A DNA stretch of 37,862 nucleotides from Thermoflexales bacterium (GTDB lineage: Bacteria; Chloroflexota; Anaerolineae; Fen-1058): assembly GCA_030834825.1 (NCBI GenBank), contig JAUQXC010000160.1, forward strand, positions 1 through 37,862, given 5' to 3'. The position numbers were made by a program, and so were the translations under genes. How positions within the stretch are numbered: the first letter of the stretch is position 1; the number at the start of each line of letters is the position of its first letter. The notes beneath the pieces were generated by a model. It was not told the DNA's origin, ran no database searches, and worked only from the letters and a program-made list of their open reading frames with translations. Below, piece after piece: positions 8,986 to 35,091 of the stretch.

Positions 8986-10031
8986 TAACCTCGCTGGAGT
9001 ACCTGGCCCGTCTGTGCCAGCGTCTCGATCGCCCGATCGGCGATCTCGATCGTCGTTGGCCCCAAGCCGCAGGCGGTGGTAATGAGGCTGCGCTGGGCGA
9101 ATTCTTCCACTCCGATTGAAACTCCGCGCCCGCGCGCTTTGTCGCTGATGAGCTGGATGCCCGCCCGCAGCCGCTGCGCCAATCCTTCCGGCGTGACGTT
9201 GAAGATCCCTTCGTTGTTAGGAATGATGCCCCAGGCGAGGTTACCACCCCGATCGAGGAAGGCGCGCACTTCGTTGGGGTACAACGCCAGGTTGTCCAGA
9301 TATTCGTAGGCGTCCAGATTGAGAATGTCCACCGAGGTTTCCATCAGCACCGACCAGTCGGTGTTGCCACAGCAGTGCACCCCGGCGAGTGCGCCCTCGG
9401 CGTGAATCGCGTCGAAGACCTCATTGAGCAGCGTCACCACCTGCTCGCGGCTCAGACTGATGAAGGCCGATCCGAACGAGGCCATGTAGGGTTCGTCGAC
9501 GAAGATGATGACGTTCGAGCGGACTTGCTTCAATTGCCGCACCTGCCAGCGTGCGTTGAAGGCCAGCTGCTTCACGATGGGATCGGCCAACTGCTCGTTG
9601 TACAGACTCGAGCGCAAATCCTGATCGACGACGGTCAGCCCAAAGCTGATCGGGCCGGTGACGTGCCCCTTGGCCCACTCGCCCGGAGTGGATTTCAAAG
9701 TGTCCCACATCGTGTAGAAGCCGGCGGCATAATCGGTTGATAACGCAAACGAATCGACATCGTCGGCCAGATAACGCCCATAGAATTCTTCCAGCGCTGG
9801 GGAAAGATCGCCCGTGGTATCAAAGGTGACCTTCTCTTTGATTTCGTCGATGACGATGCCCGGTAGACCGGCGCTGTACTGGGTATACATGTTCTCGCGA
9901 AAGGTGCGGCGGGGCAATTGCGGCCAGGCCGGGATTTGAACTTCGCGCGCCAGACGCGGACACAGGACTGCTCCGTCGGGGTGCGGAAAGCTGCCGATGA
10001 GGGTGGTCACAAACGGTTGTTCGAATGCCAT
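8985..10031 (-). CDS. MetE C-terminal/UROD-like methyltransferase family protein
   Basis: IGSFPHPDGA, FVDEPYMASFGSAF, GVHCCGNTDWSVLMET, zinc-site-like His/Cys; TAGTG overlap with asparaginase gene. Confidence 0.85.
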   Translation of the reverse strand: MAFEQPFVTTLIGSFPHPDGAVLCPRLAREVQIPAWPQLPRRTFRENMYTQYSAGLPGIVIDEIKEKVTFDTTGDLSPALEEFYGRYLADDVDSFALSTDYAAGFYTMWDTLKSTPGEWAKGHVTGPISFGLTVVDQDLRSSLYNEQLADPIVKQLAFNARWQVRQLKQVRSNVIIFVDEPYMASFGSAFISLSREQVVTLLNEVFDAIHAEGALAGVHCCGNTDWSVLMETSVDILNLDAYEYLDNLALYPNEVRAFLDRGGNLAWGIIPNNEGIFNVTPEGLAQRLRAGIQLISDKARGRGVSIGVEEFAQRSLITTACGLGPTTIEIADRAIETLAQTGQVLQRG

Positions 10032-10086
10032 CAGAATGACTCCTGAAGAAGATACACGCCGGCGCTATTGTAATCGATTCGCGCAA

Positions 10087-11703
10087 ATGCGGGAATGGCT
10101 GCGCGGTGGTAGACTTCGTCGTAGGTGGGCGCACTTGAAATCGATCTTCGACTTTCGCTACTTACTCATCGTTCTGATCTGCCTGGTGGCCTTTGCCCTG
10201 CGTCTCGGCCCGTTGTTCGACAATCGCTTTCATCCCGACGAAGCGTTGTTCAGCACCTGGGCGTTGCAGCTCGCACGCGGCGAGAATTTCCTGCTGGCCG
10301 GAGTGCCGGTCGACAAGCCGCCGCTGCTGATCTACCTTACCGCGTTGAGTTTTTTTATCTTCGGTCAAAGTGAACTGGCGGCGCGGGTACCGAACTTGCT
10401 TGCCAGTGTGGTCAGTGTGCCGTTGGTGTATCAACTCACGCGACGCGCATACTTCACCGGTAGGAGTGCTTCGCATGCTGAGCGGACTCTGAGCGAGCCT
10501 GAGCAAAGCGAAGGAGAGTCGAAGCGGCAGTCGAAGCATGCTCACGCTGACGATCCGGCATTCGTCGTAGCGCTGTTGCTCGCCCTCTCACCCTTTGCCA
10601 TTCTCTTTGCTCCCACGGCCTTTCTCGATCCGCTGATGGTCATGTTCGGTCTCGCTGCCCTCGTCGCCGTCTCGCGGGGCCGAGCGGGTTGGGCGGGTAT
10701 CTGGTTAGGCCTGTCATTTGCCACAAAAGTGCAAGGTCTTTTCTTTGCGCCATTGTTACTTGTCTTCTGGATAGCATGTCAGCCTAAACAGTCATCCCGT
10801 CACCCTTTCATCTTGTCACCTGGTCATTCGCTCTGGCGCCTTTTACTAGCTGGCCTATCCATCATGTTGGCCGTGCTCCTCTGGGATCGCCTTCGCGGCG
10901 GCTCGCCCTTTTGGGTGCAGCAGACCATCAACTATGGCGGCATCCGCGTGATCTACGCCAGCGAACTCGGTCCGCGCCTGATCGGCTGGTTGAACTTCCT
11001 GCCGTACTTCTTTGGCCCGATTATTGGAGCGCTGGGCTTGATCGGCCTGCCGATCTTGCTCTATCGTGATCTCACCCGTGATGCCCGCACTCGATCGGCC
11101 TGGATCGATCTGTGGCTGTTCACCTATACGATCGGGTTCCTGGCGCTTCATTGGTTTCTCGCCTTTCCCGTTTGGGATCGTTACTTGCTTCTTCTCGTTC
11201 CCATTACTGCGCTTTTGTTCAGTAGAGCTGTGTATCACCTTGTCACCTGGTCACCGCATCACCGTGTCTCTCCTCCTCTCGTTCTCTTTGTCATTGCTCT
11301 CACGCTGTTGCCCTTCAGCCTTGTTGCCGCGCGATCCGGCTATCCGATCGGTGGCGATCATGGCGCGAACGACGGTATCGAACCGGTCGCCGATTTTTTG
11401 AAATCGCTGCCACCGGGCACTGTCGTGTACGATCACTGGCTGGCCTGGCAGTTGGGCTACTACCTGGGCGACGGTTTTGCGTATGTGGCCTACTTCGACA
11501 CACCCGCTGCCCTGGCCGACGATCTGCGCGTGTTCGCCCGAGGCGACGATCGCTATGTCATCTTTCCGGCGCGCGAAGCACCCGACAAGGTGATCGACGC
11601 CATCGGGCAAGTGGGGTATACTCTGACGCCGGTGTTCACCACACAGAACCGTTTTGGACAGACGTCATTCACTGTTTACCAAATCATCAAACGAAAAACG
11701 TGA
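10087..11703 (+). CDS. GT39/PMT-like membrane glycosyltransferase
   Basis: Polytopic; FHPDEALFSTWALQLARGENFLLAGVPVDKPPLLIYL, LARVPNLLA-like region; start at 10087 avoids overlap with the divergent MetE-like gene. Confidence 0.85.
   Translation: MREWLRGGRLRRRWAHLKSIFDFRYLLIVLICLVAFALRLGPLFDNRFHPDEALFSTWALQLARGENFLLAGVPVDKPPLLIYLTALSFFIFGQSELAARVPNLLASVVSVPLVYQLTRRAYFTGRSASHAERTLSEPEQSEGESKRQSKHAHADDPAFVVALLLALSPFAILFAPTAFLDPLMVMFGLAALVAVSRGRAGWAGIWLGLSFATKVQGLFFAPLLLVFWIACQPKQSSRHPFILSPGHSLWRLLLAGLSIMLAVLLWDRLRGGSPFWVQQTINYGGIRVIYASELGPRLIGWLNFLPYFFGPIIGALGLIGLPILLYRDLTRDARTRSAWIDLWLFTYTIGFLALHWFLAFPVWDRYLLLLVPITALLFSRAVYHLVTWSPHHRVSPPLVLFVIALTLLPFSLVAARSGYPIGGDHGANDGIEPVADFLKSLPPGTVVYDHWLAWQLGYYLGDGFAYVAYFDTPAALADDLRVFARGDDRYVIFPAREAPDKVIDAIGQVGYTLTPVFTTQNRFGQTSFTVYQIIKRKT
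10463..10545. repeat. Imperfect inverted repeat inserted in frame within the glycosyltransferase gene
   Basis: GCTTCGCATGCTGAGCGGACTCT against reverse complement of AGAGTCGAAGCGGCAGTCGAAGC; encodes hydrophilic SASHAERTLSEPEQSEGESKRQSKHAHADD. Confidence 0.55.
10790..10829 (+). repeat. Octanucleotide tandem repeat block (consensus NGTCACCY)
   Basis: agtcatcc cgtcaccc tttcatct tgtcacct ggtcattc. Confidence 0.65.
11233..11264 (+). repeat. Octanucleotide tandem repeat block
   Basis: tatcacct tgtcacct ggtcaccg catcaccg, decaying further to about 11296. Confidence 0.65.
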
Positions 11704-11707
11704 TGCG

Positions 11708-11739
11708 TGTCACCTTGTTACCCTGTCACCATGTCACTT
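11708..11739 (+). repeat. Octanucleotide tandem repeat block spanning the YfhO-like start codon
   Basis: tgtcacct tgttaccc tgtcacca tgtcactt; ATG at 11731 lies across units 3 and 4. Confidence 0.75.
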
Positions 11740-14542
11740 CGTCTCTCCATCGCTCAGTTCCTCAATCGTAAAGACCTGCTCGCTTTGGGCATATTGCTGG
11801 CACTGGTCCTGGCTTTCTTCTGGAAGCTGGCATTGACCAATCTCCTCATCGCGCGCGGCGACATCTTCTACTACTTCTATCCCTATCGCGACTTTGCCGC
11901 GCAGGCCGTGCGTGAAGGGCGCCTCGCGCTGTGGAACCCCTACCTGTTCATGGGCACGCCATTCATGGCGAATAGCCAGGCCGGGTTCTTCTATCCCTTC
12001 AATCTGGGGCTGGTGTGGCTGGAAACGGCCCGCGCGATCAACTGGACGATCGTGCTGCACATCTTCATTGCGGCGAGCGGCGCATATGCGTTTGCGCGAT
12101 CGCGATTGAAGAGTTCGATCGCGGCGTCTCTTTTGGCGGCCGCCTCCTTTGGGCTCGGCGGCTACCTCGGCACGCAGATCGAGCACATCAATCAACTGCA
12201 AGGGCTGGCCTGGATCGGGTGGATATTTCTGGCATACGAGTCAGCGGTCAGCAGTCAGCCATCAGCAGTCAGCCATCAGAAATCTCAAGTGGATTCCGCT
12301 GGCGCTCTTGATCACACTGCAATTACTGGCAGGTCATACTCAGTCAGTCTTCATCACGCTGGTCGGTTTAGGCACTTATGCATTGTGGCAAATCATTGAG
12401 TCGATCTTTGCGGCGCGTCCAATCGGCTGGCGTGGTTACGCACTACGGATTACGTATTACTTGTCGCCTCTCATTCTTGCTGCAATCGTTGCTATCGCGC
12501 TCTCTGCGATTCAACTTCTGCCCACGCTCGAACTCACTCGCAATTCAGCCCGCAGTGGCGGCCTGCCGACGAACCTGGCCGTGTCCTTCTCGCTCGATCC
12601 ACGTCTGTTGGGACGCGCCCTGCTGCCTGATTACGAGGGCGCACTGCCGGCGGGCGGCGAGTTCACGGCGTTTTTCTCGGTGGCCGCGTTGGTATTGATG
12701 ACGATCGGCGTCACCACCCTGCGACGTGCCACACGCCCGGCACACGCTGTCGTCGTCGTCGCCTTCATCGGATTGTTCTTCGCACTCGGCGGTTACAATC
12801 CACTCTACTATTTGCTGTTGAAAATCCCCGGCTTCGATCTGTTCCGCGCGCCTGCGCGTTGGATCGTGCTCTTGGCCTTTGCCGGATCGCTGCTGGCCGG
12901 CCTCGGCCTCGACGCCATACGCGAGCGCAAAGTGTCGCGGAAGACAGTGCTGTTGGCCGTGGCTGTCATCGCGATTTTGCTGGGACTCGTTTGGATCAGC
13001 ACTGGTCTCACTCCCGCAGGCGCTTCTGGCCCGCTGGAACGACCTTCCACTCCGGCTCTCTTGCTATGGCTTGGCGCGCTGTTCATCACGCTCCTTCTTG
13101 CGTTTTACACTTCACGTTTCACGCGCCACTCGTCACTGATCACCTTCTGCATCCTGCTTCTTGCAACTTGCGAACTCTTCCTTGCCACCCGCCCGCTCGC
13201 TTACAACTCCCACACCACGGCGCCTGACGCTTTGCTCAGTCTGCGTCCGCCGATCACTTATTTGATGCAAGCCGGGCAGGGGCATACGCCACCCGATCGC
13301 TTTCTCTCGATCTCCGACATCTTCTTCGACCCCGGTGACCTGACGGAGTTGCAAGCCATCTTTGGTGATCAACTCCCCAAGGATGCTTTCTACGACCTGA
13401 TTGTGGCGACGAAGATGAAAGAGATCATCGCGCCGAACCTGCCGCTGTACTATCGCCTCCCTGCCGTCGACGGTTACGATGGCGGAGTGCTGCCGTTGAA
13501 GAATTACATTGAATTCCAGAAACTCTTCCTCGATCCGGCGTTGATTCAAACCGATGGCCGCTTGCGGGAACAACTCAAATCGATCCCGGATGCGCGCTGG
13601 CTCGATCTGATGAATGCGAAGTACATCATCACAGACAAGGTCGGCGATCAGTGGTATGACGGCGTGCTGCACGATCTACGGCTTACAACCCCCGTGGCTG
13701 CCAACGAGGTTGTCTCGACCACGCGTTTGCCGGCTTTACGCGCCGATGCGCTAAGTGTGGTTTACTCTGATCCCCGGGGCAAGGGGACATTGGGGCAAAT
13801 CGAGGTCACTTTCGAAGATGGCTCGGCTCAACAACTCATGCTGCGCGATCAACCGCTTGAGACAAAAGAGGGCCGCTCGGCAGTGCGCTTGACGTGGGGG
13901 CTACCGCAGCGTGTAAAGTCGCTGCAAGTGACGGGAGTCGCCGGATTAACGCTGCATGGCCTGGCGTTGATCGATCAAACGGCTGGCGCGTTCCAATCGT
14001 TTGTCGTGGCGCCACAGGGTCAATTTGAAGTGGTGCATTCCGGTGACGTGAAGATTTACGAGAACCGCACGGTATTGCCCAGGGCCTTCTGCGTGAGTCA
14101 GGTCTTGTCTGCGGCAAACGATGAGCAAGCCGTACAATTGATGCAGGTTGCGCAATTTGATCCGGCGAAGACGGTTGTCTTGAGCGGCGAATCTGCCGGT
14201 CCAACCGATCACCTTGTCACCTTGCCGCCTTGTCAGGCACAGCCTGTCACCTATGAACCTGAACACGTCATGATTGACGTGAATGCCTCGCGAGACGGCT
14301 ACCTCGTCCTCACCGATGCTTACTATCCCGGTTGGACCGCCACGGTCGATGGTCAACCGGCTGACATCGAACGGGCCGACCTCATGTTCCGCGCCGTGAA
14401 AGTCTCGGCGGGACAGCATCGCGTGGAGTTCTGTTATCAACCGCAGTCATTCGCCATCGGTGCGGTGATCTCGCTCGGGACGGTGCTAGCCCTCGTGGGG
14501 GTGTGGCTCGCCGCACGCCGTCGCAGATCAGCCGGCGATTAA
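11731..14542 (+). CDS. YfhO-like bacterial membrane protein, split into two frames at a heptamer repeat
   Basis: ORF 11707..12399 carries the N-terminus (...IEHINQLQGLAWIGWIFLAYESAVS) and ORF 12149..14542 carries the continuation (KWIPLALLITLQLLAGHTQSVFITLVG...); switch occurs at 12239-12287. Confidence 0.8.
12239..12280 (+). repeat. Heptanucleotide tandem repeat (6 units, consensus NRTCAGC) at the frameshift
   Basis: agtcagc ggtcagc agtcagc catcagc agtcagc catcaga. Confidence 0.9.
12434..12461 (+). repeat. Heptanucleotide repeat block
   Basis: ggttacg cactacg gattacg tattact. Confidence 0.6.
13102..13185 (+). repeat. Twelve consecutive heptads (NNNTCAC changing to NNNYTGC)
   Basis: gttttac acttcac gtttcac gcgccac tcgtcac tgatcac cttctgc atcctgc ttcttgc aacttgc gaactct tccttgc. 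Confidence 0.6.
14207..14238 (+). repeat. Octanucleotide repeat block
   Basis: gatcacct tgtcacct tgccgcct tgtcaggc. Confidence 0.55.
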
Positions 14543-14690: not shown

Positions 14691-15632
14691 ATGAGTGATG
14701 CAGCGGAGCCTGTCGCTCCAAAATCCAAAACCCAAAACCCAAAACTGGAAAGTAACAACCAGCCACTCCCGTTTTCATTGTCGGTAATGGTCGAGAGTCT
14801 ACTGTTCGTCGCCAGCGAACCGGTGCCCGTCACTCAGATCGCCGAAGCGCTTGAGGTGAAACTGGCCGAGGTGGAGCAGGCCCTGACGGAGTTGAACACC
14901 GAGATCGTGGCGCGGGGTGTGCGCGTGCAGCGCAAAGGCGACAAGGTGCAGCTGACGACCCAGCCCGAATGCGCGCCCTACGTCGAAAAATTCCTGGGCC
15001 TCGATCTGACCACGCGCCTCTCCAAGCCGGCGCTGGAAACGCTGGCCATTATCGCCTATCAGCAGCCGGTGACGCGGGCGCAGATCGAGCACGTGCGCGG
15101 CGTGAATTGCGATGGCGTGCTTTCGACGTTGTTGAATCGCGGCTTGATCGAAGAGGTGGGGCGTTTGGAAACGGCCGGCCGGCCCATTCAATACGGCACG
15201 ACCTTTGCCTTTTTGCAGCATTTTGGCCTGCGCGGCCTGGAGGATATGCCCTCGTTGCAGCCGGAAGAGGCGGTGGCCTTGGAGGCGCTGGCTGAGCAGG
15301 GGCAAGCGATTGCCGTCGATCTGGCGGTGCCCGCCGATCGAGTTGCCAGTGAAGCTGCTGGGGTTGCGTCCACCCCCGATCATGCTCTCACGCCGATTGA
15401 GACGCAGCTAGCCTTACTAAGTGATGAAGCGCCGCGACTCGACCAGGTGGCGGTGGTTGCCGAACAAGTGGATGTCAGTGCCGAGCCGGAAGCGCCGAGT
15501 GTTGAAGCGCTGGAAGCCGATCGGGTGATTGAAGCGCACGTGACGGTTGATCTCACCCCCGATCAATCTGAGGACGCGATCGAGCCACAAGCTACTGCTG
15601 AAGATTCCCCCCACGAAACCGCCGCGCTCTGA
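14691..15632 (+). CDS. scpB: Segregation and condensation protein B with acidic C-terminal extension
   Basis: VESLLFVASEPVPVTQIAEALE, KPALETLAIIAYQQPVTRAQIEHVRGVNCDGVLSTLLNRGLIEEVGR..GRPIQYGTT. Confidence 0.93.
   Translation: MSDAAEPVAPKSKTQNPKLESNNQPLPFSLSVMVESLLFVASEPVPVTQIAEALEVKLAEVEQALTELNTEIVARGVRVQRKGDKVQLTTQPECAPYVEKFLGLDLTTRLSKPALETLAIIAYQQPVTRAQIEHVRGVNCDGVLSTLLNRGLIEEVGRLETAGRPIQYGTTFAFLQHFGLRGLEDMPSLQPEEAVALEALAEQGQAIAVDLAVPADRVASEAAGVASTPDHALTPIETQLALLSDEAPRLDQVAVVAEQVDVSAEPEAPSVEALEADRVIEAHVTVDLTPDQSEDAIEPQATAEDSPHETAAL
14718..14745 (+). repeat. Heptanucleotide repeat (4 x CCAAAAY) in the scpB 5' coding region
   Basis: ccaaaat ccaaaac ccaaaac ccaaaac. Confidence 0.85.
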
Positions 15633-34974: not shown

Positions 34975-35065
34975 GTAGTCAGTTGTCAGTTCATAGTTTT
35001 CAGTAACAGCTGCTGTTATGGTGCTTGACTGAATACTGATAACTGATGACTGAGCACTAATCATT
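34975..35065. repeat. Inverted pair of heptamer arrays upstream of glmS
   Basis: tagtcag ttgtcag ttcatag ttttcag; TAACAGC t GCTGTTA; ttgactg aatactg ataactg atgactg. Confidence 0.75.
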
Positions 35066-35091
35066 ATTCCCCAACAGGAGGGTTCCCTACT

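Follow-up and report, generated by a model that had tools for sequence, protein, structure and literature searches.

A gene for a YfhO-like membrane protein is broken within the window (the whole stretch of 37,862 nucleotides from an uncultured Thermoflexales bacterium that was analysed), and the break lies inside an array of imperfect 7-nt repeats. The corresponding gene is unbroken in relatives, its downstream half shows no decay in the window, and arrays of the same family reside in frame inside other genes. The reading which we find moderately probable is that of a recent and in principle reversible slippage in one of many heptamer arrays located in protein loops, an incidental event and not a selected switch.

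The split gene and its repeat array

Table 1. Positions and characteristics of the YfhO-like gene and of the repeat arrays in the window, followed by the arrays placed elsewhere.
Feature	Position	Strand	Remarks
YfhO-like gene, upstream piece	11707..12399	+	230 aa, from GTG (11707) to stop (12397-12399); polar first loop conserved; conserved frame lost at the array
YfhO-like gene, downstream piece (PF09586)	12281..14542	+	Different frame from the upstream piece; conserved; dN/dS ~0.15 vs G001
Heptamer array	12239..12280	+	Six imperfect 7-nt units (AGTCAGC GGTCAGC AGTCAGC CATCAGC AGTCAGC CATCAGA); frame break inside
14-nt sub-repeat AGTCAGCCATCAGC	12253..12279	+	Perfect, 1.9 copies (TRF period 14)
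Octamer array (GTCACCTT-like)	11708..11755	+	Start of the YfhO-like gene; different octamer in G001
Octamer array	11235..11264	+	In frame, adjoining PMT_2 gene (9997-11703); loop with different octamers in G001
Heptamer array CCAAAAC	14717..14745	+	In frame, scpB N-terminus; AATCAGC x4 there in G001
Arrays in NuoG-type oxidoreductase, ferredoxin/pyridine-nucleotide oxidoreductase, MoeA/PBP protein, GT2 and GT4 glycosyltransferase			In frame
Arrays in PurL (two), isocitrate/isopropylmalate dehydrogenase (iso_dh), two MutL and a membrane protein on C903			In frame
Array in second YfhO-like gene on C624			In frame, corresponding loop
Further arrays			One at the PrmA N-terminus; three intergenic (L005, L015, L144)

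The downstream part of the split gene matches the Pfam family YfhO (PF09586) with 87.9 bits, against a gathering cut-off of 28.5, and 14 YfhO-like matches are found in the assembly to which the window belongs (G000, 8.0 Mb in 987 contigs). The protein has many hydrophobic segments, some of which flank the array-bearing loop, and a polar first loop; its sequence points to a putative GT-C-type glycosyltransferase-like membrane protein. The Pfam match above cut-off, the hydrophobic segments and the polar first loop are shared with the GT-C-type YfhO of Bacillus subtilis, which is required for lipoteichoic acid glycosylation (PMC5836110), whereas the loop with its array, like the frameshift, is peculiar to this Anaerolineae lineage. 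Membership of this family suggests that the window gene may have a role in glycan metabolism or decoration.

The sequence reads as six 7-nt units from position 12239, as had been stated in an earlier note on this DNA. The span given there (12239-12287) is correct up to about 12280, where the clear part of the array ends, while positions 12281-12287 contain no convincing unit. TRF reports periods of both 7 and 14 at this site, and the period-14 reading (12239-12279, 92% matches, score 68) fits better than the period-7 one. The lag-7 score of the array is 15.5, and no comparable segment was found in order-1 Markov randomised copies of the window. The six units comprise four different sequences, the sole perfect part being the 1.9-copy sub-repeat of 14 nt, which is the most slip-prone part of the array. 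As a whole, this is not the kind of long, near-perfect array for which a high slippage rate is expected.

The units sit exactly at the frame switch of the gene, as was also noted before: the ORFs upstream and downstream differ in frame, and the shift maps inside the array. When the number of units is varied from -3 to +3, a long ORF is obtained at two counts only, -1 (942 aa, with zero internal stops, as claimed for the removal of one unit) and +2 (949 aa), and all remaining counts (-3, -2, 0, +1 and +3) lead to a stop at 196-237 aa. Since the sole perfect sub-repeat is 14 nt long, the frame could be regained just as naturally by the addition of 14 nt. The unit length of the repeat is not divisible by three, and the repeat is placed in such a way that changes in unit number switch the YfhO-like ORF. 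Two weak, in-frame heptamer-like stretches, read by eye and under the scan threshold, are located in other loops of the same gene (12440-12465 and 13105-13145), and the site of the first carries other heptamers in two relatives (G001 and G004).

Comparison with relatives and constraint on the downstream half

The order-level comparison took in five genomes, with G001 as the nearest relative compared. The YfhO-like gene is a single uninterrupted ORF of 954 aa in G001 and of 988 aa in G003, and the G004 copy stays open for 805 aa until the contig stops. Each of the three carries a heptamer array in the corresponding loop, made of GGAATTC/GGAATTT units in G001, of GATCAGG in G004, and of a long degenerate GTCAGTN/TCAGCNN array in G003. 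The array edges are common to G003 and the window (TAYGAGKCAGYGGTCAGYAGTCAG ... ATCAGAAAT), the upstream frame being kept through VSSQ and the downstream frame from AIRN, and G003 is longer by exactly 35 nt, which corresponds to five 7-nt units (5 x 7). With in-frame edges on both sides and a difference of 5 x 7 nt, the shift is confined to the array. The same comparison rules out an indel outside the array, which the earlier note had named as a possible alternative, as well as a shift at the nearby AAA. A second allele is absent from G000, where the locus is single and the other hits are cross-matches between arrays, and from the collections searched. In a further genome (G027, locus L035), the loop matching window positions 12239-12280 encodes a peptide (FDLALRQA...VVSLSNH) which resembles a further palindromic repeat of the dispersed kind, as though the YfhO loop would take any repeat.

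Compared with G001, dN/dS amounts to 0.158/0.977 for the part upstream of the array and to 0.155/1.067 for the downstream part. Unique amino-acid changes in the downstream part number 35 on the window branch and 45 on that of G001 when G003 is used as the outgroup, and 28 and 32, respectively, with G004. Neither dN/dS against G001 nor these branch counts give any sign of relaxed selection past the array, and the switched frame is under purifying selection, running to 14542 with zero further stops or shifts. Decay of the downstream frame, which the earlier note had named as a sign against its reading, was sought and is absent, and this rules out an old pseudogene; the relatives are unbroken and have differing arrays. 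The break of the YfhO-like gene is recent, reversible or not real, and it is the lack of decay in the downstream half that suggests a recent event.

Arrays elsewhere in the genome and phylum

The array survey consisted of a 0.8-Mb sample and a genome-wide pattern search. G000 contains 32 occurrences of the pattern TCAGCNRTCAGCNRTCAGC and one of its reversed control. In the window, a 0.14-Mb sample of G000 and a G001 contig, most strong tandem arrays have a period of 7 or 8, and randomised sequence should contain hardly any such arrays. The units form a dispersed heptanucleotide SSR family, found in tandem at many sites and with a favoured period of 7 nt.

All matches to the TCAGCNRTCAGCNRTCAGC pattern, with additions by DNA similarity, were placed relative to genes, and Pfam was run on ten of the proteins. 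Twelve arrays of this family were placed inside genes (Table 1), and in all twelve the reading frame is the same before and after the array, which would occur by chance with a probability of (1/3)^12 (about 2e-6) if the frame were free; selection does of course act on these genes to preserve their frame. Among the arrays placed, that of the window is the sole gene-breaking one, and sampling of G000 (0.50 Mb) and G001 (0.30 Mb) revealed no further gene disrupted by an array; at nine additional arrays of this sample the frame seemed to break, and on inspection these cases were judged to be gaps between neighbouring genes. The TCAGC heptamers are stop-free in all frames in the forward sense, while their complement always meets TGA, which explains why the intragenic TCAGC arrays all have the same orientation. 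The arrays are not concentrated in genes for surface structures or host interaction, since nuoG-like, purL, mutL, moeA and iso_dh genes carry them alongside glycosyltransferases. Within the phylum, the TCAGCNR pattern is present in 39 of 301 genomes and is very unevenly spread, with a maximum of 128 hits in one genome.

An 11-unit, near-perfect heptamer array of 75 bp is located in frame in a GT4 glycosyltransferase gene (L053:1478-1552, contig C885 of G000) and its length makes it a stronger candidate than the window array for frequent slippage. Two different MutL homologues also contain in-frame heptamer arrays (L017:1489-1525 and L018:1359-1532, on contigs C782 and C807 of G000). A slip in these could disable mismatch repair, and would in that case raise slippage at every other array.

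Heptanucleotide repeats are already known in bacteria, for example as the TAACTGA repeats of Beggiatoaceae (PMC4679880) and the G-rich heptamers of Xanthomonas and Nostoc (PMC4692102). The distribution of long heptanucleotide SSRs among bacteria is scattered, as summarised in PMC4679880 from Mrazek et al. 2007, and the uneven spread of TCAGCNR over the phylum resembles it. The likeness extends to dispersed short arrays of a preferred 7-nt period, thought to be slippage-prone and patchy over genomes. The published repeats are described, in the accounts found, as mainly intergenic or under-represented in coding sequence, whereas stop-free heptamers are found here in frame inside conserved genes, with other units occupying the corresponding sites of relatives. 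No report of heptanucleotide repeats in Chloroflexi or Anaerolineae was found in the literature searched.

Explanations for the frame break

In the explanation we prefer, this Anaerolineae (Chloroflexota) lineage would be one that carries many short 7-nt arrays, both in intergenic DNA and in protein loops that tolerate them, and replication slippage in the source lineage or population of the assembly would have added or removed a number of units that is no multiple of three. Such a slip would have disrupted the frame of the YfhO-like gene for a GT-C-type membrane protein, leaving a 230-aa product that should not work, and it could in principle be reversed by the loss of one unit or the gain of two. 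Selection would remove most intragenic unit changes, and the one that persists would do so in a gene that has numerous relatives elsewhere in G000 (14 YfhO-like matches). The earlier note had instead proposed a contingency locus. The parts of that proposal which hold are that a unit change explains the frame switch and that the gene is of the YfhO type, unbroken in relatives and undecayed downstream; it is weakened by the array being short and imperfect, and by the arrays of the same family in housekeeping genes, because background slippage would give such a spread and a switch confined to surface functions would not. Selected phase variation, in which the array is kept since units are often gained and lost and a surface-glycan enzyme is thereby turned on and off, the assembly representing the OFF state, seems unlikely to us, even though -1 or +2 units restore the ORF, the downstream part is without decay, envelope glycosylation is a plausible target given the role of B. 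subtilis YfhO (PMC5836110), and an array is present in the loop of every relative in which the loop is sequenced and of the C624 paralogue. As in known phase-variable SSR loci, a change in the copy number of a non-triplet repeat can switch expression. The heptanucleotide switches of Haemophilus influenzae hmw1A/hmw2A have, however, 13-38 copies and act in promoters (PMC2651432), while the window array has only six imperfect units of four sequences, in the middle of a gene, and switching would make little sense for the arrays in purL, mutL, nuoG-like and iso_dh genes. That these housekeeping arrays are in frame does not show that the YfhO-like gene is unswitched, since housekeeping genes must stay in frame.

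An error in the assembly or consensus, with a true count that is in frame (e.g. five or eight units), would give the same appearance as a slip of one unit. The draft, metagenome-like state of the assembly with its 987 contigs, the normal constraint on the downstream half and the in-frame state of every other array placed inside genes would all fit with it. The 42-nt array is nevertheless shorter than ordinary short reads, so that the assembler should span it, and the 75-bp array of C885 was assembled in frame; we consider such an error improbable. A fixed loss of function, in which the gene was dispensable and decay into a pseudogene is beginning after the slip, is compatible with the broken frame and with the many YfhO-like paralogues, but replacements are not in excess on the window branch and the downstream part is without further stops or shifts, which makes it a very improbable explanation. 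If very recent, such a loss is indistinguishable from the incidental slippage which we favour.

Conserved sites with changing units

Seven sites were compared with relatives; their choice was not systematic, and the units in the PurL and MutL relatives were read by eye. The iso_dh loci of G002-G004 did not enter the comparison, since another gene provides the longest ORF in them. At all seven (two in PurL, and one each in MutL, scpB, PMT_2, the YfhO loop and the start of the yfhO-like gene), relatives have arrays made of other units. The first PurL site carries GTCAGTN-type units in G000, GCAAGAG-like ones in G001 and GCACCAC-like ones in G002 and G004, and the second carries AATCAGC-type units in G000, GATCAGG in G001 and CCTCCAA in G002 and G004. 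In the MutL linker, TCAGCNR in G000 is replaced by GGTCAATT-like octamers in G002 and G004. Arrays that keep their site and vary their unit are, from these alignments, a strong lead, with no measured rate.

This conservation of site with turnover of unit is more surprising than a single frame break, and is the part worth following. It is possible, and we put it forward tentatively, that a mutational habit of the lineage repeatedly seeds and replaces 7- and 8-nt arrays at the same tolerant protein loops, the site and the frame being conserved in orthologues while the unit turns over. Non-triplet repeats would then set linker length and, when slipping, produce reversible frameshifts as in the yfhO-like gene. 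If this is true, such repeats would actively feed the evolution of protein loops and would now and then break a frame.

Paired heptamer arrays that are oppositely oriented, and could thus form hairpins, are seen in an intergenic region of G001 (L055:17614-17684) and, in what appears to be the inside of purL, in G002 (L158). An ACTGATA-like heptamer array in the window itself (35028-35069) has a coding signal on one side only.
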